From Trichlorobacter ammonificans (GTDB lineage: Bacteria; Desulfobacterota; Desulfuromonadia; Geobacterales; Pseudopelobacteraceae): DNA of 64,000 nt. Numbering within the stretch: position 1 is the stretch's first letter; each line of letters starts with the position of its first letter. Made by a program: the position numbers and the translations under genes. This document shows, piece after piece, positions 14,604 to 55,102 of this stretch. The stretch is taken from contig NZ_OW150024.1 of the NCBI RefSeq assembly GCF_933509905.1, positions 2,034,001 through 2,098,000 on the forward strand. Reading direction: 5' to 3'. The notes under the pieces were generated by a model. That model was given only the letters and a program-made list of their open reading frames with translations. It was not told the origin of the DNA and did no database searches.

Positions 14604-14606
14604 ACC

Positions 14607-15823: not shown

Positions 15824-15913
15824 TGTTCTATGGATATGGGGTTGAAATCAATATTTTTTAGGATAAACTTACTCCGATTACGCAGACCGCATCATTACCG
15901 CCAGGAGGTCACC

Positions 15914-17317
15914 ATGAAACAGCAGGAAGGGTATGTGGATGACGTCGTCAAGGGATTCGTCACCTGGAGTATCATCTGGGGAACGGTTTCCATACTTCTG
16001 GGAGTGTTCATCTCCCTGCAGTTGGCGTATCCCGAGCTGAACATCCCCCCCTATCTCACCTACGGACGGCTCCGTCCGATCCACACCAACGCCGGTATCT
16101 TCGGCTGGGGAATCGGCAGCTTCATGGCCTTCTACCTCTACATCACCCAACGGCTCACCAGGACGCCGCTCTGGAGTCCCGGACTGGCCAAGTTCCAGCT
16201 CTATCTCTTCAACGTGGTGATCGCGCTGGCGGCGGTGACCCTGTTGTTGGGCATGAACCGCTCCAAGGAATATGCCGAACTGGAATGGCCGGTGGCCCTG
16301 CTGGTGGTGGTACTCTGGGTGATCTTCTCCATCAACATCATCATGACCGTTATCAAGCGTAAAGAGGAGCAGATGTACATCTCCCTCTGGTATATTCTGG
16401 CCAGCCTGATCGGTGTGGCGGTGCTCTACCTGGTGAACAACGCCGCCATTCCGGTGTCGCTCTTCAAATCCTACTCGGCCTTTGCCGGCTCCAACGACGC
16501 CAACGTGCAATGGTGGTACGGCCATAACGCCGTAGCCATGGTGCTGACCCTGCCGCCCCTGGCCATATTCTATTACTACCTGCCCAAATCCACCGGTGTA
16601 CCGATCTACAGCCACCGCATGGGGGTGATCGCCTTCTGGTCCCTGATCTTCATGTACCTCTGGACCGGTGCCCACCACCTGCTCTGGACTCCGATCCCCG
16701 ACTGGGTCCAGACCCTGGCCATGGCCTTCTCCATCATGCTGATCGCCCCCTCCTGGGCGGCGGTATTCAACGGCTACTTCTCCATGAACGGCCAGTGGCA
16801 CCAGATGCGGGAAAACTATCTGGTCAAGTTCCTGATTTTCGGCATCACGTTCTACGGTCTGCAGACCCTGCAGGGTCCCTCCCAGGCCATCCGCACCTTC
16901 TCCGCCTTCATCCACTACACCGACTGGGTACCCGGCCACGTCCACATGGGTACCCTGGGCTGGGTCTCCCTGGTGCTGTTCGCCGCCATTTACTATACCG
17001 TTCCCAAGCTGTACAGCCGCGAGATCTACAGCGTAGCGCTGGTGAACCTGCATTTCTGGCTGGCAGTGATCGGCCAGTTGATCTTCTCCGTCACCATGTG
17101 GATCGCCGGCGTGCAGCAAGCTGCCATGCTGAACGCCACCAATACCGACGGCAGCCTGCACTACACCTTCATGGAGACTCTGGTGGAGCTCTACCCCTAC
17201 TGGCAGGGACGGGCGGTGGGCGGCATCATCTACTTGGTCAGCCTGCTGATCTTCCTCTATAACATCATCAAGACCATCAGCGGCGGCTCCAGCGTTGCGG
17301 TCGAAACCAAAGCCTAG
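15914..17317 (+). CDS. ccoN: cbb3-type cytochrome c oxidase subunit I
   Basis: Catalytic heme b/b3-CuB subunit of the high-affinity cbb3 oxidase. The ATG at 15914 follows AGGAGG; the longer frame upstream lacks conservation. 467 residues with about 12 membrane helices. Conserved His-bearing segments are present: IHTNAGIFGWG, QWWYGHNAVAMVL, GAHHLLWTPIPDWVQ and HYTDWVPGHVHMGTLGW. First gene of a ccoNOQP-GHI-S cluster. Confidence 0.97.
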   Translation: MKQQEGYVDDVVKGFVTWSIIWGTVSILLGVFISLQLAYPELNIPPYLTYGRLRPIHTNAGIFGWGIGSFMAFYLYITQRLTRTPLWSPGLAKFQLYLFNVVIALAAVTLLLGMNRSKEYAELEWPVALLVVVLWVIFSINIIMTVIKRKEEQMYISLWYILASLIGVAVLYLVNNAAIPVSLFKSYSAFAGSNDANVQWWYGHNAVAMVLTLPPLAIFYYYLPKSTGVPIYSHRMGVIAFWSLIFMYLWTGAHHLLWTPIPDWVQTLAMAFSIMLIAPSWAAVFNGYFSMNGQWHQMRENYLVKFLIFGITFYGLQTLQGPSQAIRTFSAFIHYTDWVPGHVHMGTLGWVSLVLFAAIYYTVPKLYSREIYSVALVNLHFWLAVIGQLIFSVTMWIAGVQQAAMLNATNTDGSLHYTFMETLVELYPYWQGRAVGGIIYLVSLLIFLYNIIKTISGGSSVAVETKA

Positions 17318-17330
17318 GAAAGGAGATATC

Positions 17331-18191
17331 ATGACCATCGAGAAAAAGCCGCTCCTGTTTCTGCTGCTCGCTACCGCCACCATCCTGGTCGGCACGATCA
17401 TCACCATGATAGCTCCCTTCAAGTGGATCAACGATCCGAAGTTGAAGATCGCGTCGGTCAAGCCATACACTCCGCTGCAGCTTGAGGGTCGGGACATCTA
17501 CATCCGTGAAGGCTGCAACAACTGTCATACCCAGACGGTGCGGCCGCTTCTGTCGGACGTGGGACGTTACGGCGACTATTCAAAAACCGGAGAATTCATC
17601 TACGACCAACCCCATCTCTGGGGGTCCCGCCGCACCGGTCCCGATCTGGCCCGTATCGGCGGCAAGTATCCGGATGCCTGGCACTACAAGCATATGGCCG
17701 ATCCCAAGTCCATGGTGCCCAAGACCAACATGCCGGCCTACGCCTTCCTGAACCGCCCCTTGGACAGCAGCCTGAGCGAGCGCAAGATGAAGGCACTGAA
17801 ATTTCCCTACACCCCGGCCGACCTGGAGGCGTTGAAAGGGAAAACCGAAATGGACGCCCTGGTTGCCTATATGCAGAAGCTGGGCAACGACATCCCCTGG
17901 CGTAAGGCGAAGCAGGCCGCCCTTACCGGCGACCTGAAGAATCCCCATGCCCAGAAGGATACCGTCGTGCTGAACGAGGGCAAGGCGATCTACGCCCGTG
18001 AATGCGCCCAGTGCCACGGAGCCGACCTGAAGGGAGAGGTGGGCCCCGGTCTGCTCAAGAGCGGCAAGGCCGATGCCGACCTCTTCAAAGCTATTTACAG
18101 CGGCATCGACGAGAACGGCATGCCGGCCTACGGCGACACCCTGGGCACGGACAAGGTATGGAAACTGGTCACCTTCATTCAGGCACAGTAG
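17331..18191 (+). CDS. ccoO: cbb3 oxidase subunit II (CcoO) with an extra C-terminal cytochrome c domain
   Basis: Membrane-anchored c-type cytochrome passing electrons to CcoN. The ATG at 17331 follows AAGGAGATAT. 286 residues: one N-terminal helix (about 8-28), the CcoO domain with heme motif CNNCH at 62-66 and the family motifs YGDYSKTGEFIYDQPHLWGS and RTGPDLARIGG, then an added class I cytochrome c domain (about 205-286) with CAQCH at 225-229 and a possible Met ligand in NGMPAYG. Standard CcoO is about 200-240 residues with a single heme. The extra domain resembles a CcoP heme domain, and the downstream CcoP has lost one. Confidence 0.93.
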   Translation: MTIEKKPLLFLLLATATILVGTIITMIAPFKWINDPKLKIASVKPYTPLQLEGRDIYIREGCNNCHTQTVRPLLSDVGRYGDYSKTGEFIYDQPHLWGSRRTGPDLARIGGKYPDAWHYKHMADPKSMVPKTNMPAYAFLNRPLDSSLSERKMKALKFPYTPADLEALKGKTEMDALVAYMQKLGNDIPWRKAKQAALTGDLKNPHAQKDTVVLNEGKAIYARECAQCHGADLKGEVGPGLLKSGKADADLFKAIYSGIDENGMPAYGDTLGTDKVWKLVTFIQAQ

Positions 18192-18204
18192 GAGGGAAGC
18201 AGCC

Positions 18205-18393
18205 ATGATGCTGGCAAGTATCTACTACCTGGGCGTCACCCTGCTGTTATTCGCCATCTTCGCCTGGATCGTGGCGAGAACCTACAGCAGCAGGAACCGG
18301 GAACGGGGGGAGCTCCCCAAGTACCGGATGCTGGATGAGGATGAACCCGCAGCAACCGCAACGCATGACATGCCGGCTTCACACCACAGATGA
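18205..18393 (+). CDS. ccoQ: Small cbb3 oxidase subunit, CcoQ/FixQ-like
   Basis: A 62-residue protein with one membrane helix (about residues 4-24) followed by a charged tail ELPKYRMLDEDEP. Position between ccoO and ccoP and this architecture fit CcoQ, which stabilises the complex. The ATG-ATG start follows GGAGGGAAGC. The tail motif (PKYRMLDED) is echoed in CcoS here (PKHRMLDDD), so a CcoS-like origin cannot be excluded. Confidence 0.7.
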   Translation: MMLASIYYLGVTLLLFAIFAWIVARTYSSRNRERGELPKYRMLDEDEPAATATHDMPASHHR

Positions 18394-18438
18394 GAACGCT
18401 TTGATCTGGAAGCGGAAGCACACACCAGGAGGTTAGCG

Positions 18439-18933
18439 ATGTCCGATGAACATAAAGAGTATGACGGTATCAGTTACAAGGCCGACGACCGGATGCCGGC
18501 GGTGTTCAAACTGCTCCTGGCCGGCCTGTTGGTCTGGGGGGTCTGCTTCATGGGCTACTACCTGTTCAGCGGCTGGAGCTCCGAAGCGGAATTCGCCGCG
18601 AAAAAGGCGGCCCAGGAACAGGCGATTGCTGCCAACGCCGCAGCTTCCGCACCGCAGACCGGCGGAGCCGGAGCCCACAAGGAAGGAGCCCTGGCCGACT
18701 ACATCGCCGCGGGCAAAAAGGAGTACGCAGCCCGCTGCGCCGCCTGCCACGGCGCCGACGCCAAGGGGGGGATCGGTCCCGACCTGACCGCAAAGCAGTA
18801 TAAGTATGGGCGTTCGGAACAGGCGGTCACCGAATCGGTGGCAAACGGCCGCCCCGGCGGCATGCCCGGCTTCAGGAACGACCTTTCCCACGAAAAGTTG
18901 GAAGGCGTGGTCAAATACCTCCTTTCGCTGTGA
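18439..18933 (+). CDS. ccoP: Monoheme CcoP-like subunit III of cbb3 oxidase
   Basis: 164 residues: a soluble N-terminal stretch, a membrane helix (about residues 24-45), an Ala-rich linker and a single cytochrome c domain with CAACH at 100-104 and a likely Met ligand in GGMPGF. Canonical CcoP is about 280-300 residues with two CXXCH domains; only one is present. An AGGAGG lies just upstream of the ATG. Together with the two-heme CcoO the operon still encodes three c-hemes. Confidence 0.85.
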   Translation: MSDEHKEYDGISYKADDRMPAVFKLLLAGLLVWGVCFMGYYLFSGWSSEAEFAAKKAAQEQAIAANAAASAPQTGGAGAHKEGALADYIAAGKKEYAARCAACHGADAKGGIGPDLTAKQYKYGRSEQAVTESVANGRPGGMPGFRNDLSHEKLEGVVKYLLSL

Positions 18934-29952: not shown

Positions 29953-30160
29953 CGAATGCTACCCTCGATTTTTCGTTCTCCATATCAGCTTGGAGACGCA
30001 TGCCGACGTGGCTTCACCGACCATCCCGTCAACCATCCACAGTGCACAGCTCCGGCTGCGGCCTGCAGCTGAAATTCCGAATAAAGCTGCACACCTCCCT
30101 GGCTGACCGCACTTTACTTCAGATTGCCTTTTTCCGTTGCCTGTGCAACTATGCTCCCCC

Positions 30161-30784
30161 ATGATCGCCGAACAGTGTCACGGTATCGTGCTGTCAACCC
30201 TTGCCTACGGGGACAACGACGTGGTGGTGTCGCTCTTCACCCTGGAGCATGGCCGACTGCGGGCCTTTGCCCGCAGTGCCCGCACGAGCCGGAAACGGTT
30301 CGCCGGTGCCCTTGAACCGGCCACCCATCTTGCCCTGATGATGAAGATCAAACCGGAGGGGCTCTGCTCCCTGGAACGTGCCGAGCAGCTCGCCCCGCCT
30401 CCCGGACTGGCCAGCCGCCTGGACGCCCTGGCCCTGGCCCTGTACGGTTGCGAACTGGTGGAACAGCTCACGCCCGAAGGACAGCCGCTGCCCCGTTTGT
30501 ACCGCCTGCTCTCCACGATGCTGGAATATCTGGCAACAGCGGCGGCGGGACAGGAGATCCGGCGTTTTTTCGAGATCAACCTGCTCAACATTCTGGGGTA
30601 CCGTCCGCCACTGGAAGAACCGCTGCTGACACCGCTCCGTGCCTGTCTCGCTACCGGCAGGTTCAGCGCCGTCCCTTTCTCCGCCCCCCAACTGGAGGCT
30701 GCCGGACGACTTCTGGACCGGGAGCTGGAGCGACACTGTCCGCGCAGCCGGCGCAGTCTCGAATTTCTGGAAGGAGTTATCTGA
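30161..30784 (+). CDS. recO: DNA repair protein RecO
   Basis: Mediates RecA loading on gapped DNA with RecF/RecR. 207 residues: an N-terminal OB-fold (GIVLSTLAYGDNDVVVSLFT, then HGRLRAFARSAR) and a helical C-terminal domain. The length is slightly below the usual 230-250, and the zinc-finger cysteines of some homologues are absent. The ATG at 30161 aligns with the family start; a GTG 24 bp upstream is an alternative. Neither has a strong ribosome binding site. Confidence 0.88.
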   Translation: MIAEQCHGIVLSTLAYGDNDVVVSLFTLEHGRLRAFARSARTSRKRFAGALEPATHLALMMKIKPEGLCSLERAEQLAPPPGLASRLDALALALYGCELVEQLTPEGQPLPRLYRLLSTMLEYLATAAAGQEIRRFFEINLLNILGYRPPLEEPLLTPLRACLATGRFSAVPFSAPQLEAAGRLLDRELERHCPRSRRSLEFLEGVI

Positions 30785-30786
30785 TC

Positions 30787-31488
30787 ATGTGTTCTGTCCT
30801 CACCCGTGCCTGCTGTCTGCTCTGCGGTCTGCTGGTGTCCTGTATCGCCTGGGCCGCCGACCCCAGTTTCGAACTGCCGCTGAAGGAGCTGAAAAAGCCG
30901 TCGTTGCCACCATCCTCCAAGAAGACGGCAGTGGGTAGCGGCACGAAGTCCGCTGCCAAGAGTTCGGAGGGGGCACGGAGCGGCAGGAAATCCCGCAGGC
31001 ACCGTACGGGGAAAGCCGAGGCGATGACAGCGGCCGCTCCCGACGTGCCGACACCGGCGGTGGCGTCCGCACCGGTTCCCGCAGCTGACGTGACGTCGAC
31101 CGTTGAAGAGGTGTTGCTGACGCCGGGACTGCCCTGCTGGTTCGCCGGCCAGGTCGCCGGTGTGCTGGCGGCGCCGGCACCGGCCGCCCCCCTGCTGCGC
31201 GGTTTCAAACTGGCGCCGGTGGCACTGCCCCGCCACGAGGGAGCGACCGTGGTCATCACCTGCGGCCTGCCGGCCGCCGAAGCCTACACCACGGCGCGGC
31301 TGCTGGAAACCCGCCATCTGAACCTGCTGAATCTGGAAGGGAACGAAGCACCGGAACGGGTGCTGGAACAGGTACTCGACAGTCTCGGGTTTTCCTACGT
31401 CGTGGAGGGGAGTGCAGAGGAACGACAGTACCTGGTCTCTCTGGACAACGACCCGGAAACCCTGCTGCGGCTGGTCATCAAGCCCTGA
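30787..31488 (+). CDS. Secreted hypothetical protein
   Basis: 233 residues, no family recognised. The N-terminus has a signal peptide (about 1-23, ending AWA). Residues 30-90 are Lys/Ser/Arg-rich and low-complexity, then Ala/Pro-rich to about 110; the C-terminal 120 residues look folded (VVITCGLPAAEAYTTARLLE, ERVLEQVLDSLGFSYVVEG). It begins 2 bp after recO, so it is probably co-transcribed. The ATG follows GGAGTTAT. Confidence 0.7.
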   Translation: MCSVLTRACCLLCGLLVSCIAWAADPSFELPLKELKKPSLPPSSKKTAVGSGTKSAAKSSEGARSGRKSRRHRTGKAEAMTAAAPDVPTPAVASAPVPAADVTSTVEEVLLTPGLPCWFAGQVAGVLAAPAPAAPLLRGFKLAPVALPRHEGATVVITCGLPAAEAYTTARLLETRHLNLLNLEGNEAPERVLEQVLDSLGFSYVVEGSAEERQYLVSLDNDPETLLRLVIKP

Positions 31489-31500: not shown

Positions 31501-32883
31501 TCAGGCACGGCAGGCGGCGGCCAGGGCCGCCACCGTGGCGGGATTGCTGCCGAAATGAAGATGCACATAGGAGGCCAGGCAGCGGGCGCTGCCGTATCCC
31601 TCATCCCATCCCGCCTCGCCGGGGCGGGACACCCGGTAGTCCCGTCGGATACCCGCCGGCATCTCCCCGATGCGTGAATAGTGGAATTCATGCCCCCGCA
31701 CCAGCTCCCCCGCCCCTCCCAGCAGGCAGTCACGCAGCAGCGTCACCTCGCGATAGCCCAGCGCGGCGCGGCGCGTTCCCATCCGAGCGGTCACCGGAAA
31801 CACCCCGACAAAGGGGTGGGCCGGGTCATCCGCATCCATCCCCTCACTGTCGGCAATACCGTTGGTCAGGTAGACCAAGCCGCCGCACTCGGCATAGACC
31901 GGCAGCCCCGTTGCCACGGCGGCGCGAAGTGCCGCCAGCATCGGCCGGTTTTCAGCGAGCTCCTCGCGATGCAGCTCCGGATACCCCCCGGGCAGGTAGA
32001 TTCCCCGGCACCCCGGCGGCACCACCCTATCCGCGAGGGGAGAGAAGAAGCAGGGCTCCAGCCCCGCCCGCCGCATCAGGCGCAGGTTATCCTCGTACAG
32101 AAAACAGAACGCCCGGTCCCGGGCAACCGCAATCGGCACGGGTTGCCTCTCCGCCGACTCCCACTCCACAGGTTCCCCGACAGGCATCAGCGTACCGCTG
32201 CAACAGCAACGCTCCAGAAGCTCCAGGTTGATGTGGCGCTCCACGGCATCGGCCAGCCTGTCGACGAACGCTGCCGGCAGCGGATTGTCCGCAGCGGTGA
32301 CCAGTCCCAGGTGGCGGGAGGGGATGACCAGTTCCTCGTCACGGGGAAGTGCCCCCAGGAAGGGAACATCGGGACAGTGGTCGGCCATGGCCCGGGCAAG
32401 GAGCTGCGCATGGCGTTCGCTGCCCACGTTGTTGAAGACCACGCCGGCCAGCCGGACCGCGGGATCGAACCGGGCAAAACCGGTCATCAGGGCGGCGGCG
32501 CTGGCCGCCATGCCGCGGGCGTTCACCACCAGCAGCACCGGCGCGCCGGTCAGCCGGGCGATTGCCGCAGTGCTTCCCTGGTCGGCAGTAGCACCCAGAC
32601 CATCGAACAGCCCCATCACCCCCTCGATCACCGCCCAGTCGCAGCCACCCGTGTGGTGCCGGAAGGTTTCCCGAACAAAGGAGGAAGGACAGATCCAACT
32701 GTCCAGATTGACCGAGGGGCGCCCGGTGATCAGGCGATGGTAGCCGGGGTCGATGAAGTCGGGGCCGGCCTTGAAGGGGGCCACCCGTTGTCCGCGACGG
32801 GTAAGCAGCGCAAGCAGCCCCAGGGTGACGGTGGTCTTGCCGGAACCGCTCTGGGGAGCGGCTATAACGAGGGTCTTCATCAT
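31501..32883 (-). CDS. cbiA: Cobyrinic acid a,c-diamide synthase
   Basis: Amidates carboxylates a and c of (hydrogeno)cobyrinate with glutamine and ATP in cobalamin synthesis. 460 residues: an N-terminal P-loop ([12 protein letters not shown]), the family segment [13 protein letters not shown], and a C-terminal class I glutaminase domain with nucleophile Cys in [12 protein letters not shown]. Starts at tandem ATGs (32883, 32880); the first overlaps the tonB-like stop. No other cobalamin genes are in the window. Confidence 0.92.
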
Positions 32884-33752
32884 CAACGCAGCCTGCCGCG
32901 GGCATTGCCATACTGGAAGAAGGCGATCAGGTGGAATTCGTCCTTGGGGTAGGTCCGGGGCAGGCTGCCCATGGGTCCCAGCAGGCGCAGGGTACGAAAG
33001 ACCTCGTCATCCAGCAGCTTGCTGCCCGAGCTTTCCAGCAACCGGATGTTCACGATCTCGCCGTTTCTGTTGAAGGTGATCCTGACCGGCGTCACCCCCT
33101 CGATCCCCTTGAGCGCCGCCTCCTGGGGATAGCGCCAGACGCCGTACACCGCGGTCTCGAAGCGGCGCAGGAAGGAGCCGAACATGACGTCGTCGCTGTT
33201 CAGGAACCGGGTGTCCCCGTCGGCAACATCGTCGGCAAAGCGGCGGCGGTAATTTTCCTCGATCTGGGCCATCCGGCCGGCACTGGGCATCAGCCGGGCC
33301 ATGTCGGGTTGCCGGGACGCCTGCGGCTGCGGGGAGCGACGGCGCAGCAGTTCACCGGCGGAACTGCCTCCCGGTTCCGGTTGCCGGGACGGGGGCTGCT
33401 CGGTCGAGGGACGGGAGGGGGTCGAAGTGACCGGCGGTGCGGGTGTCAACCGGGGCTGACGGGGGGCTGTTTCCCGCTCGACCCGTTGGCGTCGGTCGGA
33501 AGGACGGATCTTCTCCGGTTGCACCCGAGCCTCGGGAAGGGGAAGCTGCTGCAGGTCCTGCAAGTCGATGAAGGTCGGTTCGGGCATGGCCGGAGCGGCG
33601 GGCCGCCAGAGGTAGAGCAGCGTAAAGCCGATAAGGTGCAGGAGTAGCGAGACCGCCAGCAGGGAGAGGAACGACGGCTCGACATACCGGTTGGAAAAAA
33701 CGCCCTGAGACAGAGGACCCCTCCTGAAACCGAAGAGGGGATGCCCTGGCAT
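32883..33752 (-). CDS. TonB-family energy transducer protein
   Basis: From the ATG at 33752, 289 residues: a single membrane helix ([19 protein letters not shown]), a long Pro/Arg/Gln-rich periplasmic spacer, and a C-terminal TonB domain ([37 protein letters not shown]). The start is uncertain: the frame is open to 33875, and the ATG at 33752 lies inside a strong hairpin. Coupling to cbiA (1-bp overlap with ATG 32883) suggests a role in corrinoid or metal uptake, but that is inference. Confidence 0.8.
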
Positions 33753-33762
33753 CCCCTCTTCA
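33733..33762 (-). promoter_or_regulatory. 14-bp inverted repeat covering the tonB-like start
   Basis: GAAGAGGGGATGCC and GGCATCCCCTCTTC are separated by 2 bp. On the minus-strand mRNA it buries the candidate ribosome binding site GAAGAGGGG and the ATG. The 3' arm (CCCCTC) could alternatively pair with a downstream GAGGGG. Looks like translational control or a leader hairpin; no ligand motif recognised. Confidence 0.4.
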
Positions 33763-34013
33763 TCAGCACGTCGTCTCTCCACCCTGCCGTCAGCTCCAAG
33801 GGGCCTCTGGCGAGTTCCCTTAAGGTGGGCACCGATATACCGCTTCAGGCAATTCCCGCGTACAGAGGGCAGCACACCACGGTAGAGAAAGGTCCCCGGT
33901 TTATTCAGTATTCCGCCCGGGCGCTACAGGAACAAAAACAAACAGGGCAGAGAGCGAAGTGACTACGGTGGTATCCTAGTCCCACCTCAGTTTTTTTTCA
34001 AGCGGTTTGTAAA

Positions 34014-44779: not shown

Positions 44780-45355
44780 CTACCGATGGCAGAGCGTGCA
44801 GGCCGGACCGCTCCGCTCCACCCCTTGCCCCTGGGGACCGTGACAAACGATATTGGTACAGGAAGCCGGGCCATTTGCCTGAACATAAAGACCATGGCTG
44901 TTGGCGGCAGTCCAGCTTGCAGGGTGGATAGCATGCGTCCCCCCCAGGTGGCACTTGGTGCAGGAAGGACCTGCGGCACCGCTCAGAGTACTGCCGTGGC
45001 AGGCCGACGTCGCACAGGACGTGGTACCGTTGCTTTTTACGTAGGCGCCATGCTCGGAGTAGACAAAGCTGCCCCAGGCAACCGGATGGATCGTGCGTTC
45101 GTTGCCCATATGGCACGACGTGCAGGCCACATTAACCTTGCCACCGGCGTAGTCGGCACCATGGCACTCGGTACAATTGACGATATTTGCCGTCGCGGCG
45201 GCCTTATGCCCGCTGGGCAACCAGCCGGACGGATGCTTGCCACTGTCCGAGGAAAGCGTGGATTGTTTTGTCGATTCACCGCAGCCGGCAATGAACAGCG
45301 CCGTAACACAGAGGCACAGCAGGATCATAGTCAGGGCAGTTCTCACTTGTGGCAT
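44780..45355 (-). CDS. Multiheme c-type cytochrome lipoprotein (4 CXXCH + 2 CX4CH)
   Basis: 191 residues from the ATG at 45355, which follows GAGGGGTG; a GTG at 45364 is an alternative. The signal peptide ends in lipobox FIAGC (Cys25). Heme-type motifs in order: CTECH, CTSCH, CATSACH (CX4CH), CTKCH, CTNIVCH (CX4CH), CTLCH. Up to six hemes if both CX4CH sites are used. Last gene of the porin-cytochrome block; likely sits on the outer membrane as an electron carrier. Confidence 0.88.
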   Translation of the reverse strand: MPQVRTALTMILLCLCVTALFIAGCGESTKQSTLSSDSGKHPSGWLPSGHKAAATANIVNCTECHGADYAGGKVNVACTSCHMGNERTIHPVAWGSFVYSEHGAYVKSNGTTSCATSACHGSTLSGAAGPSCTKCHLGGTHAIHPASWTAANSHGLYVQANGPASCTNIVCHGPQGQGVERSGPACTLCHR

Positions 45356-45786
45356 CGTTTGCACCCCTCATTATTTTGTCGGCCATGGCACCTGAAGCAG
45401 GAGGTCGGGTTGATCTTCCCGTCTATCTTATGCTGGCTCAGATAATTACCGCGATGGGGCATTGAGCGTTCCGGCGATGTCGGATACTTGGTGCCGGGCT
45501 TGAGCTCTTCCTTGCCGGCATGGCAGTCGGTGCAGAAGGACGCTGCATGGCATGAGTTACAGGCATAGCCCTTGGTGGCGGCAAAATACTTGTGCTTGGC
45601 ATAGAAGTCCGGCGCTTTATGGTTCCAGGCAGCCCAGCCATCATCAGAGTGGCATTCGGCACAATTGGGCGGCCCGGTAAATTCCATAAAATGCTTCCTG
45701 GACACGCTCGTGGTATTTGCACAGGCATACAGGACGCAGAGCGCAACGGGAATCAGGATAGTTGCTGCGAGCTTGCTGGTTTTCAC
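45343..45786 (-). CDS. Pentaheme c-type cytochrome lipoprotein
   Basis: 147 residues with a signal peptide ending VLYAC (Cys22, acceptable but not ideal lipobox). Five CXXCH motifs: CAECH, CNSCH, CTDCH, CFRCH, CKRCH, with many extra His (e.g. WNHKAPDFYAKHKYF) for bis-His ligation. Starts at GTG after GAAGGGAG. It overlaps the next cytochrome by 13 bp and lies 16 bp after the outer-membrane barrel, suggesting a functional conduit. Confidence 0.88.
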   Translation of the reverse strand: MKTSKLAATILIPVALCVLYACANTTSVSRKHFMEFTGPPNCAECHSDDGWAAWNHKAPDFYAKHKYFAATKGYACNSCHAASFCTDCHAGKEELKPGTKYPTSPERSMPHRGNYLSQHKIDGKINPTSCFRCHGRQNNEGCKRCHK

Positions 45787-45802: not shown

Positions 45803-47098
45803 CTACGGTTTGAAATCAAAAGCATAGGACAGCTTGACCAGTCCCCGCAGCTCGTTTTTGAACTCGGGGTTCCGCGAATAGTCCACGTCGCCCGTCAGCT
45901 TCAGGGCGCTGGTCAGCTTGTAGGATGCGGCGGCAATGACGGTGAAGGCATTTTTTTCTCCGTTAACCGCGCGATCGTAAAAAAGGTTGATCAGGTCTGC
46001 AGCCAGTTCAAATTTTTCGAACTTCTTGCCGGCATAGAGACGACACTCGGTATACTGCAGTTCCTTGACCCGGCCATCCATACGATACACCGAAGCTCCT
46101 GCCGAGTATCCCCGGTCACTGCTGTAGCTCAACCCGGCCCCGTAGTAGTGGGCTGTTCTGGCAATATCATAGGAGTTGTTGGTATACCGAGCCACCACTG
46201 CCACGTTGCCGGTGGGCTGATAGGCAGCCGTACCGCCGAGGGAAAGCAGCTTCTCGTTAGGATCGAGGTTTTTACCCATAAGGCGGAAGACGCTGCTGGT
46301 GGAGCCGTAGAAAAAGTCACGGTAGTTGACATTGGAAAGATCGGCTGACAGGCGAAACCTGTCGGACGGCAGATAGGAAAGCGAGTAGGTATGCTCCATC
46401 CAGCCGTCGGTCATTGAGTTGTAGGAGGAGCGGCCAGCCACGGCGATCTGACTGATCGGCTGAGCAACAAGGTCTATTCCCTCCTCCTCGCGGAAACGGC
46501 GATCCCCTTCCCGGGTCTGCAGGGCACTGACGCCGATGGTGTACTTGGTACCCAGCGAATGGGTCACCCTGCCGCCATAGATGAGGCTGCCCCCCTTCGC
46601 GGAAGGCTCGGTCACCACCGGAGAGCCGACAAAGCCGGCGGCACCGAAGCCACGCGCCAGATCGCTGCGCAGGTACAGACCGTCAAACTTTTCGGTCATC
46701 ACCCCTTCGGCAGTAAACTGACGGCCGACGCTGACCACCAGATTATTCTTGCTGTGCTGGTAGGTCAGGTAGCCGTAGCGCAGGTCGCCGTCCTGATACC
46801 GGTCGCGGGTCTTGCTTGCCAGGTCGGTCCTCCCCCATCCACCGAAGTGAAAAGAAAGTCCGTCATCCTTGGACAGGTTGGTGGCGGAGAGTTGCAGGTA
46901 TTCATATACGGGATAATAATCTTTTTTATCCGACCCCTGCCCCATTCTGAGGATAGTGGAGGCTTCTCCCGAAATCACAACCGACTCCGCCTGCGCAACC
47001 GCGGCAGAGCCGAGCAGACCGGCCAGCGAAAGCCCCAACGCCATCCGCAGGTAGCGGCGCGACACGACACGCTTCATGCTCATCTGGTGGGTGTCCAA
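45803..47098 (-). CDS. Outer-membrane beta-barrel protein of a porin-cytochrome cluster
   Basis: 431 residues starting at TTG 47098, chosen because AAGGAGG lies 7 nt upstream; ATGs at 47083 and 47077 are too far from it. Signal peptide ends near AVAQA. The mature part alternates hydrophobic and polar residues with many aromatic girdle positions and ends in a C-terminal strand LVKLSYAFDF plus KP. Tight linkage to two multiheme lipoproteins suggests the channel of an Ext/Pcc-like electron conduit; no heme motif of its own. Confidence 0.82.
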   Translation of the reverse strand: MDTHQMSMKRVVSRRYLRMALGLSLAGLLGSAAVAQAESVVISGEASTILRMGQGSDKKDYYPVYEYLQLSATNLSKDDGLSFHFGGWGRTDLASKTRDRYQDGDLRYGYLTYQHSKNNLVVSVGRQFTAEGVMTEKFDGLYLRSDLARGFGAAGFVGSPVVTEPSAKGGSLIYGGRVTHSLGTKYTIGVSALQTREGDRRFREEEGIDLVAQPISQIAVAGRSSYNSMTDGWMEHTYSLSYLPSDRFRLSADLSNVNYRDFFYGSTSSVFRLMGKNLDPNEKLLSLGGTAAYQPTGNVAVVARYTNNSYDIARTAHYYGAGLSYSSDRGYSAGASVYRMDGRVKELQYTECRLYAGKKFEKFELAADLINLFYDRAVNGEKNAFTVIAAASYKLTSALKLTGDVDYSRNPEFKNELRGLVKLSYAFDFKP

Positions 47099-47267: not shown

Positions 47268-47297
47268 AAAAAAGGCGTTCCGAAGAACCGGAACGCC
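47268..47297 (-). terminator. intrinsic terminator after the HhH gene
   Basis: On the minus strand an 8-bp perfect stem (GGCGTTCC / GGAACGCC, loop 8) is followed by six T. Well-formed rho-independent terminator, 33 bp after the stop at 47330; it separates the HhH gene from the porin operon. Confidence 0.85.
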
Positions 47298-47329
47298 TGT
47301 AAGTTTTATCCGGAATCCTGAAGTCCCGA

Positions 47330-47731
47330 TTACTTTTTCTGCCCGCCCTTCTGTTGCTGCAGCTGCTGCAGAGCAGCCTGCGGATTCTTGACGGCAATCA
47401 GGCCCCTGATGGCTTCATAATTGGCCTCGGGTACGACCTTGTTGGTTACAAGCCATGCCTTGCTTGCATACGGCCGACCGGCAATAATTTTGTCCGCAAG
47501 CTCATCGGTAATGGTCGGCAGCTTTTTCAACTCTGCCTTGGAGGCGGCATTAATATCCACCAGCTTGGAAAGAGGTACTTTCGATTTCTTCTTCACATCA
47601 GTCTTCTTGACTGGCTTTACCACTTTCCTCGGCTTACGCGGTGCCTCGTCCTCCTCAACGGCTCGAACCACCGTTGCCGAAAGCCCGAGAATAGCGACAC
47701 AGCAGATAATCCCAACGAGTTTACGTTTCAT
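47330..47731 (-). CDS. Secreted helix-hairpin-helix (ComEA-like) protein
   Basis: 133 residues from the ATG at 47731 (a TTG one codon earlier is possible), after AGGAGG. Signal peptide about 1-25 (ending VVRA). A Lys-rich linker precedes a ComEA-type helix-hairpin-helix: LVDINAASKAELKKLPTITD followed by ELADKIIAGRPY. A Gln-rich tail ends the protein. ComEA domains bind DNA in the periplasm during competence; here the role is uncertain. It is a monocistronic unit between two strong terminators. Confidence 0.82.
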   Translation of the reverse strand: MKRKLVGIICCVAILGLSATVVRAVEEDEAPRKPRKVVKPVKKTDVKKKSKVPLSKLVDINAASKAELKKLPTITDELADKIIAGRPYASKAWLVTNKVVPEANYEAIRGLIAVKNPQAALQQLQQQKGGQKK

Positions 47732-47816
47732 CAACAGGCAACCTCCTGACCCAATGTATGGACATCAACCGAAACCGGCGTCTGTACCTAGCATATTCAA
47801 ACCATTAACCGCAATC

Positions 47817-47922: not shown

Positions 47923-49992
47923 TTACTTGCTGTGAACCTTCTTGATGTCGCCAATCTTACCCGAGCCGTGGCAAGCCATGCAAGCCTCGGTATTGACAGC
48001 CACACCACCGACCAAGGTCGTAGAACGCTTCACGTACAGCTTACCGCCATTTTGCTGCATATGGGCAACTGCACTGCTTGTGTCATGGCAGCCGAAGCAA
48101 GAAGCGGTGATCGGCGAAATAACCAAGTGGTTAGCACCTGCGCCAACGCTATAATCTTCGTAGCCGTTGCCAAAGGACTTCACCCACGGAGACAGACCGA
48201 TAACGGTATTGGCGCCCGGGTCAGGGAAGTTACCACTCAGAGCGGCAGACCACAGCAGGCCAGTCAGTGCGTTTTTGCTGGCAGTGTTCGAGAAGTCATA
48301 GCTGCCGGCAACGTGGCACTGCTCGCAGTTTTTCAGTACGCCCGGATAGGTTACATGGCCAAAACCGGCCGGATTGGAAGCTGTTGCCTCATAGCTGTAA
48401 TCTACCGTACGCTTACCCGAGCCATGGATACCGTGCACCAGATCCTTGGCACTGACGGACCAGCCGCCGCCGTAGTTATAGCTAGCGCCGACATGGCCGG
48501 TAGCGCGGCCATTGTAGTGGCAGACTGCGCAGCCTTCACCGTTGTTACGGGTACCACCATGGAAGGACGGACCAGTGCCCAGCTGTCCGTGGCAAGCGTT
48601 ACACTTGGCAGCGCTCACGATGGAACGGCGGGGATTGTAACCATCTGCAACCTTCATCGGGAAGACGGCATCGTTCAGCCTGATGCCCTGCGGATATGCC
48701 GGGTGGTTCAGTTGCACAAAACCGCTGTAGTCGATACCAACCAAGCCGGTTACCATGGTTGCAGTGTCAGGAATAATAGTTGCAAGCGTAGCTGTGTAAT
48801 AACCATCGGCATCCGGACCGGTCTGGCTGTTGCCGCCTACGCCATCACGGACATTCTTGACCGAGACGTTGAAAGAGGTGGTCCAATCCGCCGGTGCAGC
48901 AACACCAAAGGTGTTGGCTGCAGCATAGGCAATATAGAGACCGGGGCTGCCGTCAACGTTATCGATCAGGTAGCCGCTGCTGCGCAGGGTCACCGGCTGG
49001 CCGTCCTTCAGAATGCGATAGGTAATCTGAGCCTTCTTGGCGCCAGCTGCACCTACCACCTTAACAGACTTGATTTCATAGGCGATCTTGTAGACACCGG
49101 AGGGCAGATTCAGCTGGGAAGCCAGCGGAATGGAGGGACCCTGACCAGAAGGATAGCCATTGGTTGGAACGTTTACTGCGGTATTCAGCGGGTAACCGGC
49201 GCGACCGTTTGCACCGGTGGGATCAACGGTTACGTGGTAGCGAGTGATGTCGGCGGTCTTGTGGCAGAGGGCGCAGTTGGCGTCATTGCTAGCAGAGCCA
49301 CCAATATGGCCGGCGCCAGTGGACCAGTTGATACCGTCGTGGCAGCTACCGCAAGCCAGACGGCTGGGGACGGAGCCCCAGTTAGCAGCCTGGGTGGCTT
49401 CTGCGCCACTGTGGCACTTCACGCAGTTGTTGACCGGCTGGGGATACGTAATGTGATTGTACTGCACGCCGGCATAGTTATAGCCGGTCTTGGTCAGCGC
49501 CTCACCTGCATGCAGCTTGTGGATGAAGACCGGGAAATCGCCCTGTACTTCACCATCGGCGATGTAGGGGCTACCAGTGAAAGCACCACCAGTAGAGGCG
49601 GAGTTGGTCCGGCCGAACTTGCGCTGGTCGGTATGGCAGACCACGCAGATACGGGCGTCGTTCCGGGAACCGCCGTGGAAACCAAGGCCATTCAGCTTGC
49701 TGTGGCAAGAGTTGCAGCTCTCGGTGGACACAACGTTGCGCTGGGCGTTGGCGCTGGTGACTGCCTTACCGGTAGCGGGAACAAAGTCGTAGATGATGTT
49801 GGCCGGATCAGCGATGTTGGCGGAGGCAACACCACTGTTTGAACCGTCGGCGGTGTTGCTGCCGGTACCGCGGGCGGCGCCAGAAATCTGGATCACCAGA
49901 CGGTGAGTCAGGGTCGGATCATAGGTCAGGTCGCCAAGGTCAGCAGCAACGTTGGGAGCCGTCAGGGTCATGGCGGCAACCTGATCCTTCAC
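47923..49992 (-). CDS. OmcA/MtrC-family decaheme cytochrome, C-terminal fragment (all hemes)
   Basis: 689-residue frame carrying ten CXXCH motifs: CNSCH, CVVCH, CVKCH, CGSCH, CALCH, then CNACH, CAVCH, CEQCH, CFGCH, CMACH. The two pentaheme groups are separated by a beta-rich domain (about residues 265-430), as in MtrC/OmcA. It has no signal peptide; its GTG start overlaps the stop of the upstream frame (GTGA). The natural N-terminus is the frame 49989-50489, displaced by a 2-nt insertion. Without that insertion the gene encodes about 854 residues. Confidence 0.9.
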   Translation of the reverse strand: MKDQVAAMTLTAPNVAADLGDLTYDPTLTHRLVIQISGAARGTGSNTADGSNSGVASANIADPANIIYDFVPATGKAVTSANAQRNVVSTESCNSCHSKLNGLGFHGGSRNDARICVVCHTDQRKFGRTNSASTGGAFTGSPYIADGEVQGDFPVFIHKLHAGEALTKTGYNYAGVQYNHITYPQPVNNCVKCHSGAEATQAANWGSVPSRLACGSCHDGINWSTGAGHIGGSASNDANCALCHKTADITRYHVTVDPTGANGRAGYPLNTAVNVPTNGYPSGQGPSIPLASQLNLPSGVYKIAYEIKSVKVVGAAGAKKAQITYRILKDGQPVTLRSSGYLIDNVDGSPGLYIAYAAANTFGVAAPADWTTSFNVSVKNVRDGVGGNSQTGPDADGYYTATLATIIPDTATMVTGLVGIDYSGFVQLNHPAYPQGIRLNDAVFPMKVADGYNPRRSIVSAAKCNACHGQLGTGPSFHGGTRNNGEGCAVCHYNGRATGHVGASYNYGGGWSVSAKDLVHGIHGSGKRTVDYSYEATASNPAGFGHVTYPGVLKNCEQCHVAGSYDFSNTASKNALTGLLWSAALSGNFPDPGANTVIGLSPWVKSFGNGYEDYSVGAGANHLVISPITASCFGCHDTSSAVAHMQQNGGKLYVKRSTTLVGGVAVNTEACMACHGSGKIGDIKKVHSK

Positions 49993-50489
49993 CTTGGTGA
50001 TGTCGCGGTAGAAGAGGTGTAGGTGTAGGTACCGTCGCCGTGGTCAACCAGCGTACCGGTGTTGTCCGTGGTGGGACGGGTAGCGGTGGCGGCGGTGGTG
50101 GTGGTCGGCACCGTGGTCACAATGTAGCTGACCCACTTGCTGGGGGAACCGTTGGTGCCGGGAACCAGCTTGGCCAGCGCAAAGGACACGTTGGAATAGC
50201 TGGCCACCGTGGCGGTTGAGCTCTTGGAGCTATTGCCAAGGCCGACCAAGGGGTTGCCGTTGGCATCGGTCACCTTGAACTTGACCACCGGCGGACTGTT
50301 GATGGAAACACTCAGAACCTCACCCTTGGGAGCGAGATCAGACCACTGGTCCGTTGTCAGGCTGGCCACGCTGACCGGTGCTGCCGTAGCGTCCCTGCCA
50401 TCACGGCCATCCTTGCCGTCTTTGCCGCAGCCTGCAAGCAGCAGGGAACCCGCTGCAATACAGAGCGCCAAACGAGTAAACATGTTCAT
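49989..50489 (-). CDS. Decaheme cytochrome lipoprotein, N-terminal fragment (frameshifted)
   Basis: From the ATG at 50489 (after GGAGG) comes a clear lipoprotein signal (LLLAGC, then GKDGKDGRDGRD) and an Ig-like domain typical of OmcA/MtrC N-termini. The frame runs to DHGDGTYTYT and then into SSTATSPR-stop. In the next frame the expected FYRDITKVKDQV follows. A GTG at 50540 with AAGGAG is an alternative start but gives an atypically long n-region. Read alone it would be a short heme-less lipoprotein. Confidence 0.85.
   Translation of the reverse strand: MNMFTRLALCIAAGSLLLAGCGKDGKDGRDGRDATAAPVSVASLTTDQWSDLAPKGEVLSVSINSPPVVKFKVTDANGNPLVGLGNSSKSSTATVASYSNVSFALAKLVPGTNGSPSKWVSYIVTTVPTTTTAATATRPTTDNTGTLVDHGDGTYTYTSSTATSPR
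50009..50018 (-). other. 2-nt insertion causing frameshift in the decaheme gene
   Basis: On the coding strand ACCTCTTCTACC occurs where ACCTTCTACC would keep the frame (Thr-Phe-Tyr). The extra dinucleotide lies within a TCTTCT run, consistent with slippage, a real mutation or a sequencing error. Confidence 0.75.
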
Positions 50490-51229
50490 ACACAAGCCTC
50501 CGGGTAAACTTTTGATTGGATACTTCGCCACACTGCTCACATTACTCCTTACGCCACGCGTGCTTCCAATAATCCGACCCGTTCACCTCCTTTTTTCGTT
50601 GGGCTCGTACAACAACACCCTGAACTCGATTGGTGCTGCTTTCCCATTCAATATCGAAACAGTCACAGCACCGGCTAAACTCCTACAAATACGGTACAGT
50701 ATAGATACATCAAGCCCCTCCTGGCTGCAATGCGATTCTGGACAGTGAAGAACGGCGCCATTCCCAGACAAAAATAAAATATTTTAAGACACTTACACAG
50801 CCACCCCCCCACACACCCACGCCATCCGAAACACCGAAAGCAAAAAACGCGCCAAACAAAAAAATTATATAAAAATACATTAATTTCAACATATTAAAGC
50901 AAACCACCCCTGCCACACCCCACAGAACCGTTGTTCATAATTCGGCACACCAAACAGCCACCAATTTAGCCAAAAACGTTTATATAATTAATTTTATTAA
51001 TAATATTTAATAAAAATAGATGTTCAATTTTCGACACCGCCAACTATGGGCGCCGTGCTGCACTGTACCGAACTCAATACATCAGCCGACATCCTATTTA
51101 TAAACCATGGTCTGTCTGTGTCGGAGCCGGAGAGGCCTGCAGGGAAAAAACAGACTGACAAACGGCCCATCAGGAAAGGTGAGATATCAGAAGAATACCA
51201 GGAGAGTACCGCCAGCTCAGCGGGGGAGA
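50490..51229. other. 740-bp non-coding region with AT-rich island and inverted 18-mers
   Basis: 50490-50740 is the decaheme leader and contains an extra strong Shine-Dalgarno-like AAGGAGGTGA (coding strand, near 50585). 50760-51045 is strikingly AT-rich compared with the rest. Two 18-bp copies in inverted orientation, 16 of 18 identical, bracket it at 50742-50759 (ACAGTGAAGAACGGCGCC) and 51049-51066. No convincing gene was found; small frames here lack support. Confidence 0.6.
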
Positions 51230-52597
51230 TCAGGGTTTTCTAATACTGTATTTTTCCATCTTGCCGTAGAGCGTACCGCGGGCGATATCCAGTGCGTCGG
51301 CGGCCTGTTTGAGGTTCCACTGTTTTTCTTCCAGAACCCGCCTGATCAGTGACGCTTCCACATCTGCAAGGGTTGTCGATGGGCTGGTCAGCGTCACACT
51401 GCTTTTCGGCTGTGCCGGCTGACGAAGCAGTTCGGGGAAGTCGCCCGGGGAGAGCATCCGGTTGCGACTGAAGACCACGGCATGTTCAACGATGTTAGCC
51501 AGTTCCCGGCAGTTGCCGGGCCACTGATAGCGACAGAGCAGCTCCATGGCGTCGGCAGTGAACCCCTCGATCTGTTTGCCGGAGAGCGCACGGAACCGGT
51601 CAAGGAAGTAGTTGGCCAGCAACGGGATGTCGGAGGTGCGTTCACGTAGCGGAGGGGCTTGCAGGGAAACAACGTTGATACGGTAGTAAAGATCTTCGCG
51701 GAATTGCTTTTCCGTCACCGCCCTGGCCAGGTCGCGGTTCGTGGCGCAAATCAGCCGGACGTCGGCCCGGAGCGTCTCCGTGCCGCCGACCCGCTGAAAA
51801 ACGCCCAGCTCCAGGATGCGCAGCAGCGCCACCTGCGTGGTCATCGAAATATCGCCGATTTCATCGAGGAAAAGTGTTCCCCCCGACGCCTGTTCGAACA
51901 ATCCCTTTTTCTGACCAACGGCACCGGTGAAGGCGCCCTTTTCATGACCGAACAGCTCACTGCTCACCAGACCGTCCGACAGTGCGGCACAGTTGACCTG
52001 CAGAAAGGGGCCATCCTTGCGGGAGCTTTTGGCGTGGATGGCGGCAGCGATCAACTCTTTGCCGGTTCCGCTCTCACCGGTAATCAGTACCGTTGCGGAA
52101 GTCTGGGCCACCTGATTGATTTTTTCGTAGATTTCGAACATCTTGCGGTCCTGGCCGATGATGTTCTCGAAGCTGAAGCCGCGCCGCTGCGCATCATCGG
52201 GGGTAGCGTGGGACCGGAAGGCGCTGCGGTGGGCACAAACGGTTTCTATGGCTCGCTCCACCATGTCGAAATCCAGCGGTTTCAGGAGATAGTCGTAGGC
52301 GCCGGCCTTCATCGCCTTCACTGCCTGGGAGGTGGAGTCAAGGCCGGTCAGAATCAGGACGAACAGATACGGATACCGGTTTTTAATCTCCGTCATCAAT
52401 TCAATGCCGTCCATGAACGGCATCTGCAGATCGGTGAAGACCATGTCGGCAGGAAACTGCTGCAGACGCAGGAGCGCTTCCTCGCCACTCTGGGCCGTTT
52501 CCACCAGAAAGCGGGGATCCCGACCGATCCGGCTGCGAAAAATGCGACAATAAGCTGGTTCATCATCGACAAACAGGATACGAATCTTCTCGCTCAC
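51230..52597 (-). CDS. Sigma54-dependent NtrC-family response regulator
   Basis: 455 residues: a receiver with Asp56 (MVFTDLQMP), an AAA+ domain with Walker A GESGTGKE from 174 and the sigma54-contact motif GAFTGA at 221-226, and a C-terminal Fis-type HTH (LKQAADALDIARGTLYGKM). Starts at GTG overlapping the stop of the upstream receiver gene. Candidate activator of the neighbouring cytochrome cluster, though I could not find a clear -24/-12 promoter there. Confidence 0.94.
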   Translation of the reverse strand: MSEKIRILFVDDEPAYCRIFRSRIGRDPRFLVETAQSGEEALLRLQQFPADMVFTDLQMPFMDGIELMTEIKNRYPYLFVLILTGLDSTSQAVKAMKAGAYDYLLKPLDFDMVERAIETVCAHRSAFRSHATPDDAQRRGFSFENIIGQDRKMFEIYEKINQVAQTSATVLITGESGTGKELIAAAIHAKSSRKDGPFLQVNCAALSDGLVSSELFGHEKGAFTGAVGQKKGLFEQASGGTLFLDEIGDISMTTQVALLRILELGVFQRVGGTETLRADVRLICATNRDLARAVTEKQFREDLYYRINVVSLQAPPLRERTSDIPLLANYFLDRFRALSGKQIEGFTADAMELLCRYQWPGNCRELANIVEHAVVFSRNRMLSPGDFPELLRQPAQPKSSVTLTSPSTTLADVEASLIRRVLEEKQWNLKQAADALDIARGTLYGKMEKYSIRKP

Positions 52598-53001
52598 GTC
52601 GTAGTTGCTCCCTCTCCCATTCCGCTCCTGCAGCGCTTCCCTGCCGCCCGGATCAGGGCCTTCAGTTCATCCCGCTTCCAGGGTTTGTGAAGGAATCCCA
52701 TGATATCACCCTGCTGCAGAGCGCCGGCAACGGCAGGTACCTCCACAAATCCGGAGATGACGATTCCCGAAATCCACGGCCACCGGGCATGCACTTCGTG
52801 AAGAAAATCAAGGCCGTTCATCCCCGGCATCTGATAATCGGAAACAACCACATCCACCGGCTGGTTCTCCAGCAGCTCAAGCGCTTGGGCTGCCGAGGTG
52901 GCGCTGTGCATGCTGATGCCTTCGTTTCGGCAGAAACGCTCCAGCGTACGCAGGATATGCACTTCGTCATCAACGCAGAGCAGACGCAGTCTATCGGACA
53001 T
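52594..53001 (-). CDS. Stand-alone receiver-domain protein
   Basis: 135 residues, receiver only: acidic pair DDE at 11-13, phosphoacceptor Asp55 (VVVSDYQMPGMNG), and Lys in LHKPWKRDEL. The KPW variant resembles receivers of the RpfG/HDOD-signalling group. The ATG at 53001 follows GGAGG. It overlaps the kinase upstream (11 bp) and the NtrC gene downstream (4 bp), so all three are coupled. Confidence 0.9.
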   Translation of the reverse strand: MSDRLRLLCVDDEVHILRTLERFCRNEGISMHSATSAAQALELLENQPVDVVVSDYQMPGMNGLDFLHEVHARWPWISGIVISGFVEVPAVAGALQQGDIMGFLHKPWKRDELKALIRAAGKRCRSGMGEGATTT

Positions 53002-55102
53002 TGCCGCCTCCGGCAACTGCTGAAAACGAGACAACGGATCCGACATTTGCCCCTGCACGACCACCGGACACAACTTCGTCGCCGGTGTCCAGCGGCAGCC
53101 GGATGATGAAGGTCGTACCGGCGCCGGGAACGCTCTCCACACGGATTTCACCGTGATGCTGGCTGACGATGTCGTACACGATGGAAAGCCCCAGCCCGGT
53201 CCCCTGCCCCACATCCTTGGTCGTGAAGAATGGCTCGAATATCCTGGACAGATTTTCCGGCGCAATGCCGCTGCCGGTATCGGCGATGGAGATAAAGACC
53301 GCATCGTCTGCAGCCCAGGTACTGACCGTCACCTCGCCGCGCTTCTCAATGGCATGGGCGGCGTTGATCAGCAGGTTCATGAACACCTGGTTGAGCTGTT
53401 GCGGGTAGCAGCGGATTTTCGGGATCGTGCCGAAGCGCCGATGCACCAACGCTTTGTGTCGCAGTTCATGGTGGGTAATGGCGATGGTGCTCTCCAGGCA
53501 TTCGTTGATGTCGGCACGTTTATACTCCACGTCGTCGACCCGGGAAAAATTGCGCAGGTTCCTGACAATGCTGCTGACACGCCCCGCCCCTTCCAGTGAC
53601 TCGGCGATCAGGGTATCGAAATCCTCGAAGATGAGGTCGACCCCCAGCTCATGCCGCTCCCGCGCAAGGTCTTCCAATTCCTGCGCGTCGGAGCAGCGCC
53701 CGGCAACCGCCTGCTGCAGCTCGAGAAAACGTTGCAGGCGGGTCATGTACACCCGCAGCTCTTCAAGGTTGTTGGTGACAAAGCCGATCGGATTGTTGAT
53801 ATCGTGGGCCACGCCGGCGGCCAACAGACCGATGCTGGCCATCTTGTCCTGATGCAGGATCACCGCCTGCCGGGATTTCAATTCCGTATAGGCCTGCTCC
53901 AACTCGTTACGCCCCTGCTCCAGCTCCCGGCTCATAGCTTCAAGGGTCCGGGTCCGCTCCGCCACCCGCTCTTCCAGGTGATCGTTCAGGTGGATCAGTT
54001 CGGCTTCAACCCGTTGACGCTCGGCGACTTCCTGCTCCAGCAGGGTATTGGTCCGGTTGACGTTGGCAACCTCATCGGCAAGCTTCTGCTGGGCAGTCTG
54101 CAATCTGGCTTCCACCTGGCCGAGAATCCGCCAGGCAAAGGCAAACAGGACGGAGCAGATACCCAGCCCCAGCAGCACGACCTTCAGCACGAAGTTAGAG
54201 AAGTCCTTGGCAATCCGGGTGGTGTCGTGCAGCAGGACGAATTCCCCCACCACCCGTCCGCCGGTTTCCACCAGAGGAAAACGCTTGGCCGCAAACCGGC
54301 GGTCATCGAGACGGATGTTCTTCCATCCCTGGCCATCGAACGAACGGGCAGCCGGCTGCGACAGCATGGCAACCAGGCCATCGGGAATACGCGGCAGGGA
54401 GTGACCGGACACCACCTTGGCCGGTAGCAGATCCCAGGAGGAGCGCTGCCCCGCCCCCTTTACCGACGCCTCCCATATTTTTCGGTCCAGCAGTGATTTG
54501 TCGAGGCCCACCAGATAGTCAACATGGCTGATGGCGGCCAGCTTGCGCATGGTTCCGCCGATTTCCGACCCCAGCTCAATGAACCCCAGCAGGCCGGTCG
54601 CGTCATACCAGGGGATCACCAGCCGCAGGGCCAGCATACCGGAGGGGGCCAATTCGAGGCCGTGGGCGGGGCGACCGCTTTCCAGGGCCCGACGCACGGT
54701 GTTCCCGGCCGTGCCGCCGACATGTTCACGCGGTGCGTGAATACTGAGCACCGTTGCGGCATCGGGACCATACACCGTGAGATGGCTGATTCCCTCGGGC
54801 CCGGCCATGCGGCGGTAGTAGGGCAATGCCTGCCGGTAGAGCGCGGTCCGGTCGCCGTGGCGCATGGCGTTTTTCAGGAAAGGGTCGATAACGATCGGCT
54901 CCGCCGTGGCGATCATCCATTCCGACCTGATGGAGAGAAGTTCGTTGAAGAGGGACTGCGCTTCGTGATAGTGCCGGTCAAGGGCATCGGAGATGGTGTT
55001 GCGTCTGATGGCATAGGCACTGTACAGGAAACTGCCCAAGAGCACCAAAAAGGTGAGGGTCAGCGGAACCAGTACCTGTCGACGAAGGTTGGAGAATATC
55101 AT
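52991..55102 (-). CDS. Membrane sensor histidine kinase with Cache-like sensor
   Basis: 703 residues. Helix 1 (about 9-30), a periplasmic dCache-like domain of about 270 residues, helix 2 (about 305-325), a long coiled coil (about 330-415), HisKA with His433 in GVAHDINNPIGFV, and a HATPase domain (GTGLGLSIVYDIV). No receiver is fused. Partners are the two response regulators encoded immediately downstream. Confidence 0.93.
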   Translation of the reverse strand: MIFSNLRRQVLVPLTLTFLVLLGSFLYSAYAIRRNTISDALDRHYHEAQSLFNELLSIRSEWMIATAEPIVIDPFLKNAMRHGDRTALYRQALPYYRRMAGPEGISHLTVYGPDAATVLSIHAPREHVGGTAGNTVRRALESGRPAHGLELAPSGMLALRLVIPWYDATGLLGFIELGSEIGGTMRKLAAISHVDYLVGLDKSLLDRKIWEASVKGAGQRSSWDLLPAKVVSGHSLPRIPDGLVAMLSQPAARSFDGQGWKNIRLDDRRFAAKRFPLVETGGRVVGEFVLLHDTTRIAKDFSNFVLKVVLLGLGICSVLFAFAWRILGQVEARLQTAQQKLADEVANVNRTNTLLEQEVAERQRVEAELIHLNDHLEERVAERTRTLEAMSRELEQGRNELEQAYTELKSRQAVILHQDKMASIGLLAAGVAHDINNPIGFVTNNLEELRVYMTRLQRFLELQQAVAGRCSDAQELEDLARERHELGVDLIFEDFDTLIAESLEGAGRVSSIVRNLRNFSRVDDVEYKRADINECLESTIAITHHELRHKALVHRRFGTIPKIRCYPQQLNQVFMNLLINAAHAIEKRGEVTVSTWAADDAVFISIADTGSGIAPENLSRIFEPFFTTKDVGQGTGLGLSIVYDIVSQHHGEIRVESVPGAGTTFIIRLPLDTGDEVVSGGRAGANVGSVVSFSAVAGGGNVR

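Follow-up and report, generated by a model that had tools for sequence, protein, structure and literature searches.

Decaheme cytochromes of the OmcA/MtrC family (TIGR03507), with MtrF (3PMQ) and MtrC (6R2Q/7O7G) as references, carry a lipoprotein-like signal and ten CXXCH motifs. Multiheme cytochrome genes also occur as frameshift pseudogenes, in which a single indel interrupts an otherwise conserved gene and paralogues are left. In Geobacter, multiheme cytochromes and a barrel protein are encoded together in porin-cytochrome (pcc) gene clusters, the kind of cluster that a passage of PMC11389400 describes as deleted.

The 64-kb stretch of Trichlorobacter ammonificans DNA analysed here (the window) holds a locus that can be compared with each of these. 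In the sequence as given, one of three decaheme genes carries a real, single-lesion frameshift. The gene shares with the OmcA/MtrC family the lipoprotein-like signal and the ten motifs, with two matches to PF22113, the MtrC/MtrF domain II/IV profile, and MtrF matched over four stretches, but its frame is broken ahead of the first heme. In an alignment with MtrC chain 6R2Q_C, the break lies well ahead of the first heme motif, in what we take to be 'domain I'. The difference from the frameshift pseudogenes is that this break is known from assembled sequence rather than at the level of reads. The locus resembles the pcc clusters in kind, with multiheme cytochromes and a barrel candidate encoded side by side; here, an OmcA/MtrC-type outer cytochrome, now broken, is joined by two small lipoprotein-like cytochromes. 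The MtrB/PioB porin (PF11854) has no match in the T. ammonificans genome at E 0.01, so the locus is not classed as MtrCAB proper.

The gene lies on the reverse strand and is divided between two frames. The N-terminal fragment (49989..50489, 166 aa) starts at an ATG at 50489 with GGAGG upstream and terminates at TGA 49991-49989. It encodes the lipoprotein signal MNMFTRLALCIAAGSLLLAGC, with the lipobox LLAGC recognized by eye, and the N-terminal part of the first domain, while its last 8 residues are read out of frame before the stop. The C-terminal fragment, the ten-heme body (47923..49992, 689 aa), runs from a GTG at 49992 to a TAA ending at 47923. It contains the remainder of the first domain, the heme body and all ten CXXCH motifs, and a signal peptide of its own is absent as judged by eye. 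The stop of the N-terminal frame and the start of the ten-heme frame overlap as GTGA. The earlier note had placed the lipoprotein start and the ten-heme body in different frames overlapping in this way, and the coordinates, the frames and the overlap are all confirmed. The lipoprotein signal and the ten motifs are thus both encoded, but they are united only when the gene is read across the break. Reading across it yields a single protein of 854 residues, in agreement with the restored frame of about 854 codons proposed before, and the gene has no other stop or frame break. At gathering thresholds, Rfam finds no RNA family near the split gene.

Both fragments match TIGR03507, the first at E 7e-23 and the second, which also matches PF22113, at E 1.9e-139. 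In a whole-genome search they occupy profile positions 3-99 and 97-672 respectively, so that little or no profile is lost between them. Because the two halves cover adjoining stretches of one profile, their pairing is not due to chance. The C-terminal frame alone scores 466.2 bits with TIGR03507, against a curated cut-off of 209.3. None of 14 named control genomes was matched by this profile in the survey described below, and E. coli stayed under the cut-off in another search. PF22113 is less specific, with E. coli exceeding its cut-off.

The genome (3,058,983 bases in one contig) contains two intact decaheme paralogues, at 416.6-419.0 kb and at 2245.8-2247.9 kb. Around the break, the split gene and the 416 kb paralogue share 77% DNA identity over 1,217 alignment columns (blastn). 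Here the split gene has two bases more than the paralogue, at 50013..50016 on the reverse strand, and the 28 bases after the gap are identical. The exact placement of the surplus is ambiguous within these four positions. They meet the TCTTCT run that had been pointed out near the break, which we find at 50015-50010 on the reverse strand. A six-frame coding-potential Viterbi analysis, trained on about 103 kb of the genome's own DNA and free of homology, switches frame at 50015/50016. We also aligned 20 homologous frames, taken from this genome, from the genomes of relatives and from named public contigs. The set excludes repeat copies of one gene from overlapping loci, frames that a locus or contig end truncates ahead of the site (e.g. 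L020_+_0_696) and fragments that fall short of it. All 20 traverse the junction unbroken with the pattern F-x-x-(D/N/S) and none has an extra residue; YTF stands at the junction in 16 of them, and a different residue pair precedes the F in the other four. A loss of one nucleotide rather than a gain of two was considered and rejected, as it would demand an additional residue after the conserved F, which no homologue has. Together, the shorter paralogue DNA and the unbroken homologues bear out both the 2-nt insertion and the split decaheme OmcA/MtrC gene that the earlier note had proposed.

A wider survey with TIGR03507 covered 277 genomes of the class, 63 of which matched at 1e-15, with no more than four candidates scored per genome. 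It listed 111 matches, some genes giving two. Profile positions 85-115, which include the break site, are spanned in one frame by 79 of these, while 29 fall short of the site. The sole frame break in this interval among the listed matches is the one between the two pieces of the T. ammonificans gene; the other edge found there belongs to a match in G240 that starts at contig base 4. One or two internal stop codons occur somewhere in six of the 79 spanning matches (from G005, G078, G082, G126, G138 and G256).

The genes on either side of the split gene all lie on the reverse strand. Upstream lie a sensor histidine kinase with a dCache-type sensor domain (52991..55102; PF02518, PF14827), a single-domain response regulator (52594..53004, start approximate) with 62% identity to its counterpart in G005, and a sigma-54-dependent response regulator of the NtrC type (51230..52597; PF00158, PF00072, PF02954). 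A sigma-54-type promoter candidate, TGGCGC-N5-TTGCT, is found at 50839..50854. It has one mismatch and is the only such site in the window, which holds none with zero mismatches; perfect matches occur close to where the 416 kb paralogue and the decaheme gene in the second G005 module described below begin. At two or fewer mismatches, the window has 20 sites against 36.8 expected by chance, and we therefore regard the candidate as no more than suggestive. Downstream of the ten-heme body lies the gene for a small ComEA-like protein of the helix-hairpin-helix kind, which opens with a signal-like stretch (47330..47734; PF12836). Searched at E 1e-4, the operon regions of G005, G029 and G012 (L027, L098, L099) gave no match to it. 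A terminator-like hairpin of 11 pairs followed by T5 (47273..47298) separates the decaheme and helix-hairpin-helix genes from the porin gene, although such sites in the whole scan (9, against a shuffle mean of 13.1) are not above shuffles. The outer-membrane beta-barrel (porin) candidate (45803..47098) has homologues of 47-48% identity in the corresponding operons of G029 and G012; it has no Pfam match at E<=1, and a signal-peptide-like start and a C-terminal aromatic residue were recognized by eye. It is followed by a five-heme lipoprotein-like cytochrome (45343..45786), with 53% identity in G012 and 59% in G029, and by a second small multiheme lipoprotein-like cytochrome (44780..45364) with four CXXCH and two CX4CH motifs.

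In G029, which belongs to another family of the order, the decaheme, porin candidate, five-heme and second small cytochrome genes stand in the same order, and the decaheme gene is intact. An outer cytochrome, a barrel candidate and further cytochromes are thus encoded together, in conserved order, in both the T. ammonificans window and G029. We read the split gene as encoding the presumed surface cytochrome of a porin-cytochrome operon with four genes, of which a relative has an intact version.

Within the genus, the arrangement differs. G012 keeps the regulators (the NtrC-type one is 89% identical), the porin candidate and the small cytochromes, and the expected place of the decaheme gene is occupied by genes for an HTH regulator and an ATPase on the opposite strand (L099 6129-7919, reverse strand). 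After its small cytochromes, at the contig end, G012 has a decaheme-like lipoprotein start of only 32 residues (E 0.011), which makes a move of the gene more likely than its loss. A repeated loss of the decaheme at the syntenic place was therefore dropped. G005 has two tandem modules of sensor kinase, receiver, sigma-54 regulator and decaheme (L027 2946-17984, L028 187-6764). The second module type is found in the T. ammonificans genome 1.66 Mb away, at 412-419 kb, where the 416 kb paralogue has matching regulators alongside. The barrel in G005 shows 21% identity and is distant or unrelated. Since no porin match lies within the 20 kb examined around the 416 kb paralogue, the intact porin of the split operon might serve that paralogue. 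Among 14 other species of the genus that were examined, the ten-heme part was matched in three (G005, G012, G014) and the porin in one (G012). By these matches, the decaheme and porin genes appear patchy in the genus, so the absence of one decaheme is in itself unremarkable.

Upstream and downstream of the break alike, it is at the third codon position that the split gene differs most often from the 416 kb paralogue. Before it, the three codon positions differ 31/31/68 times over 157 codons (dN/dS ~0.31), and after it 190/163/320 times over 657 codons (dN/dS ~0.26). In a tree of 21 proteins, the split copy groups with this paralogue with support of 100/99. Its end branch measures 0.17, while that of the intact paralogue measures 0.46. 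Of the two, the broken copy is thus better conserved, and its conservation lasted until recently; rearranged segments may account for part of the length of the paralogue's branch. With dS at 0.8-1.2, the distance to the paralogue is too high for the break to be dated by it. As the gene has no further lesion, either the break happened very recently or the sequence is in error. The recent inactivation suggested in the earlier note gains support from both the lack of a second stop or frame break and the short branch.

The best explanation, and one we consider probable, is a recent inactivation of the decaheme gene by one 2-bp tandem duplication. Three other biological readings can be set against it. 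The GTGA overlap might mark a natural two-part protein, with separate lipoprotein and heme subunits coupled in translation, but AAGGTGAAGG is also present in the intact paralogue, where it codes K-V-K internally, so the overlap is not an evolved coupling site. By eye, no ribosome-binding site precedes the GTG and no signal peptide stands on the heme part. No second family member is split at this site, either among the 20 aligned homologues or among the matches listed in the 277 genomes, so the naturally two-part homologues that the earlier note had named as grounds against a split gene did not appear, and a two-part protein is highly improbable. The surplus, two bases duplicated in tandem, would also suit phase variation, in which slippage in the tract switches the surface cytochrome between an on and an off state, for instance as a guard against phages using it as receptor; OmcA of Shewanella is named as a phage target in a passage of PMC12977616. 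The tract, however, consists of two TCT units only and is far too short for a phase-variable repeat, and the four related loci whose DNA was compared at the break site show no repeat. Runs of this kind are common here: the 64 kb contain TCTTCT 31 times, whereas shuffles average 18.5 and only 2 in 100 get to 31. The phase-variable tract raised in the earlier note is thus not upheld, and we hold this reading to be very unlikely. Programmed ribosomal -1 frameshifting would yield the full protein from the split gene, and the second frame is formally -1 to the first, with an overlap of about 55 nt (50043-49989, as read off the open frame of 706 codons). No X XXY YYZ heptamer falls on the codon positions within this overlap, though, the RNA fold is not unusually stable (z -0.42 and -0.95), and every aligned homologue is unsplit. 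Frameshifting is therefore extremely improbable.

A sequencing or assembly error, with one intact frame in the living strain, is a more serious candidate, which we nevertheless consider unlikely. Apart from the break, the 2,567 bases of this well-conserved gene carry no lesion, and a gene otherwise so intact is expected equally from an error and from a very recent mutation, the break being known here from the assembly and not from reads. Against an error stands the nature of the surplus, since two additional bases outside a homopolymer are not known as a typical indel error in long-read sequencing. We also scanned 46 window proteins, a part of the window's ORFs, with NCBIfam; nine had no match (7 of 40 at 1e-8, 2 of 6 at 0.01), and recO matched only profile positions 2-148 of 239. 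The only other clear frame break in this set is that of prfB, the standard programmed site CTTTGAC at 4677, which serves as a good positive control for the scan. This result makes a careless assembly unlikely, while it does not bear on the break site itself.

Under the preferred reading of a recent inactivation, the OmcA/MtrC-type decaheme lipoprotein would have stood at the surface end of an electron conduit made of porin and cytochromes and controlled by a two-component system. One recent tandem duplication of two bases (CT or TC), presumably arising by slippage, would break the frame upstream of the heme-coding part, and translation would end after 166 residues. Cytochrome c maturation adds the hemes in the periplasm. 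A ten-heme part started anew at the overlapping GTG would still lack an export signal and so could not receive its hemes, and it would be expected to stay in the cytoplasm, heme-free. The porin and the two small cytochromes are unbroken and may work with the two decaheme paralogues that are intact. With these paralogues present, the break alone need not abolish extracellular respiration. A relaxation of selection, in a lineage limited to respiring nitrate, is the probable background.

The physiology reported for the species can be set beside these findings. The G+C content of 61.2% over 119 kb of own DNA compares with 61.3% given for T. ammonificans (PMC10811743), and the species tested negative for Fe(III) forms, AQDS and MnO2 as electron acceptors (PMC10811743). 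The sole PF02335 gene of the genome encodes an 8-heme cytochrome; a molybdopterin oxidoreductase with a Tat signal, which we infer to be NapA, is encoded 2.2 kb upstream of it. This agrees with a passage of PMC11972089, according to which T. ammonificans lacks the pentaheme NrfA and has an octaheme enzyme that works together with Nap. In view of the negative tests, the break may belong to a loss of respiration outside the cell. Damage to a surface cytochrome fits these tests, but with two intact paralogues it is no more than a possible cause of them. In kind, a broken cytochrome gene is ordinary: part of PMC12977616 reports the multiheme cytochromes of Geobacter as fast-evolving and suggests a high rate of acquisition and loss, so a single broken copy is unsurprising.

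Only tentatively, and as a rather doubtful reading, do we suggest that the break is a recent step in losing extracellular respiration in a nitrate-ammonifying Trichlorobacter. A Geobacter-type conduit would then be caught at the start of its decay, its conserved decaheme-porin operon having just lost the surface cytochrome while the regulators, porin and small cytochromes are still intact. If real, the break would offer a testable genetic cause, or partial cause, for why a relative of Geobacter is reported not to use Fe(III), AQDS or MnO2, together with a simple way into how metal respiration gets lost. There are also consequences for annotation. Called alone, the ten-heme ORF would be listed as a cytochrome despite having no export signal, and annotation of prfB from ORFs alone would truncate that gene.

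Other features of the window were observed in passing. In the stretch 30137-31488 on the forward strand, the recO match is followed directly by a coding segment in another frame, which is without a family match. Genes for cytochrome bd and a cbb3-type oxidase stand together at 13008-18933 on the forward strand; T. ammonificans is described as an obligate anaerobe (PMC10811743). A 6S RNA gene (Rfam RF00013, 68.5 bits) lies at 33772-33956 on the reverse strand and overlaps the start of a TonB-like ORF at 32883-33875.
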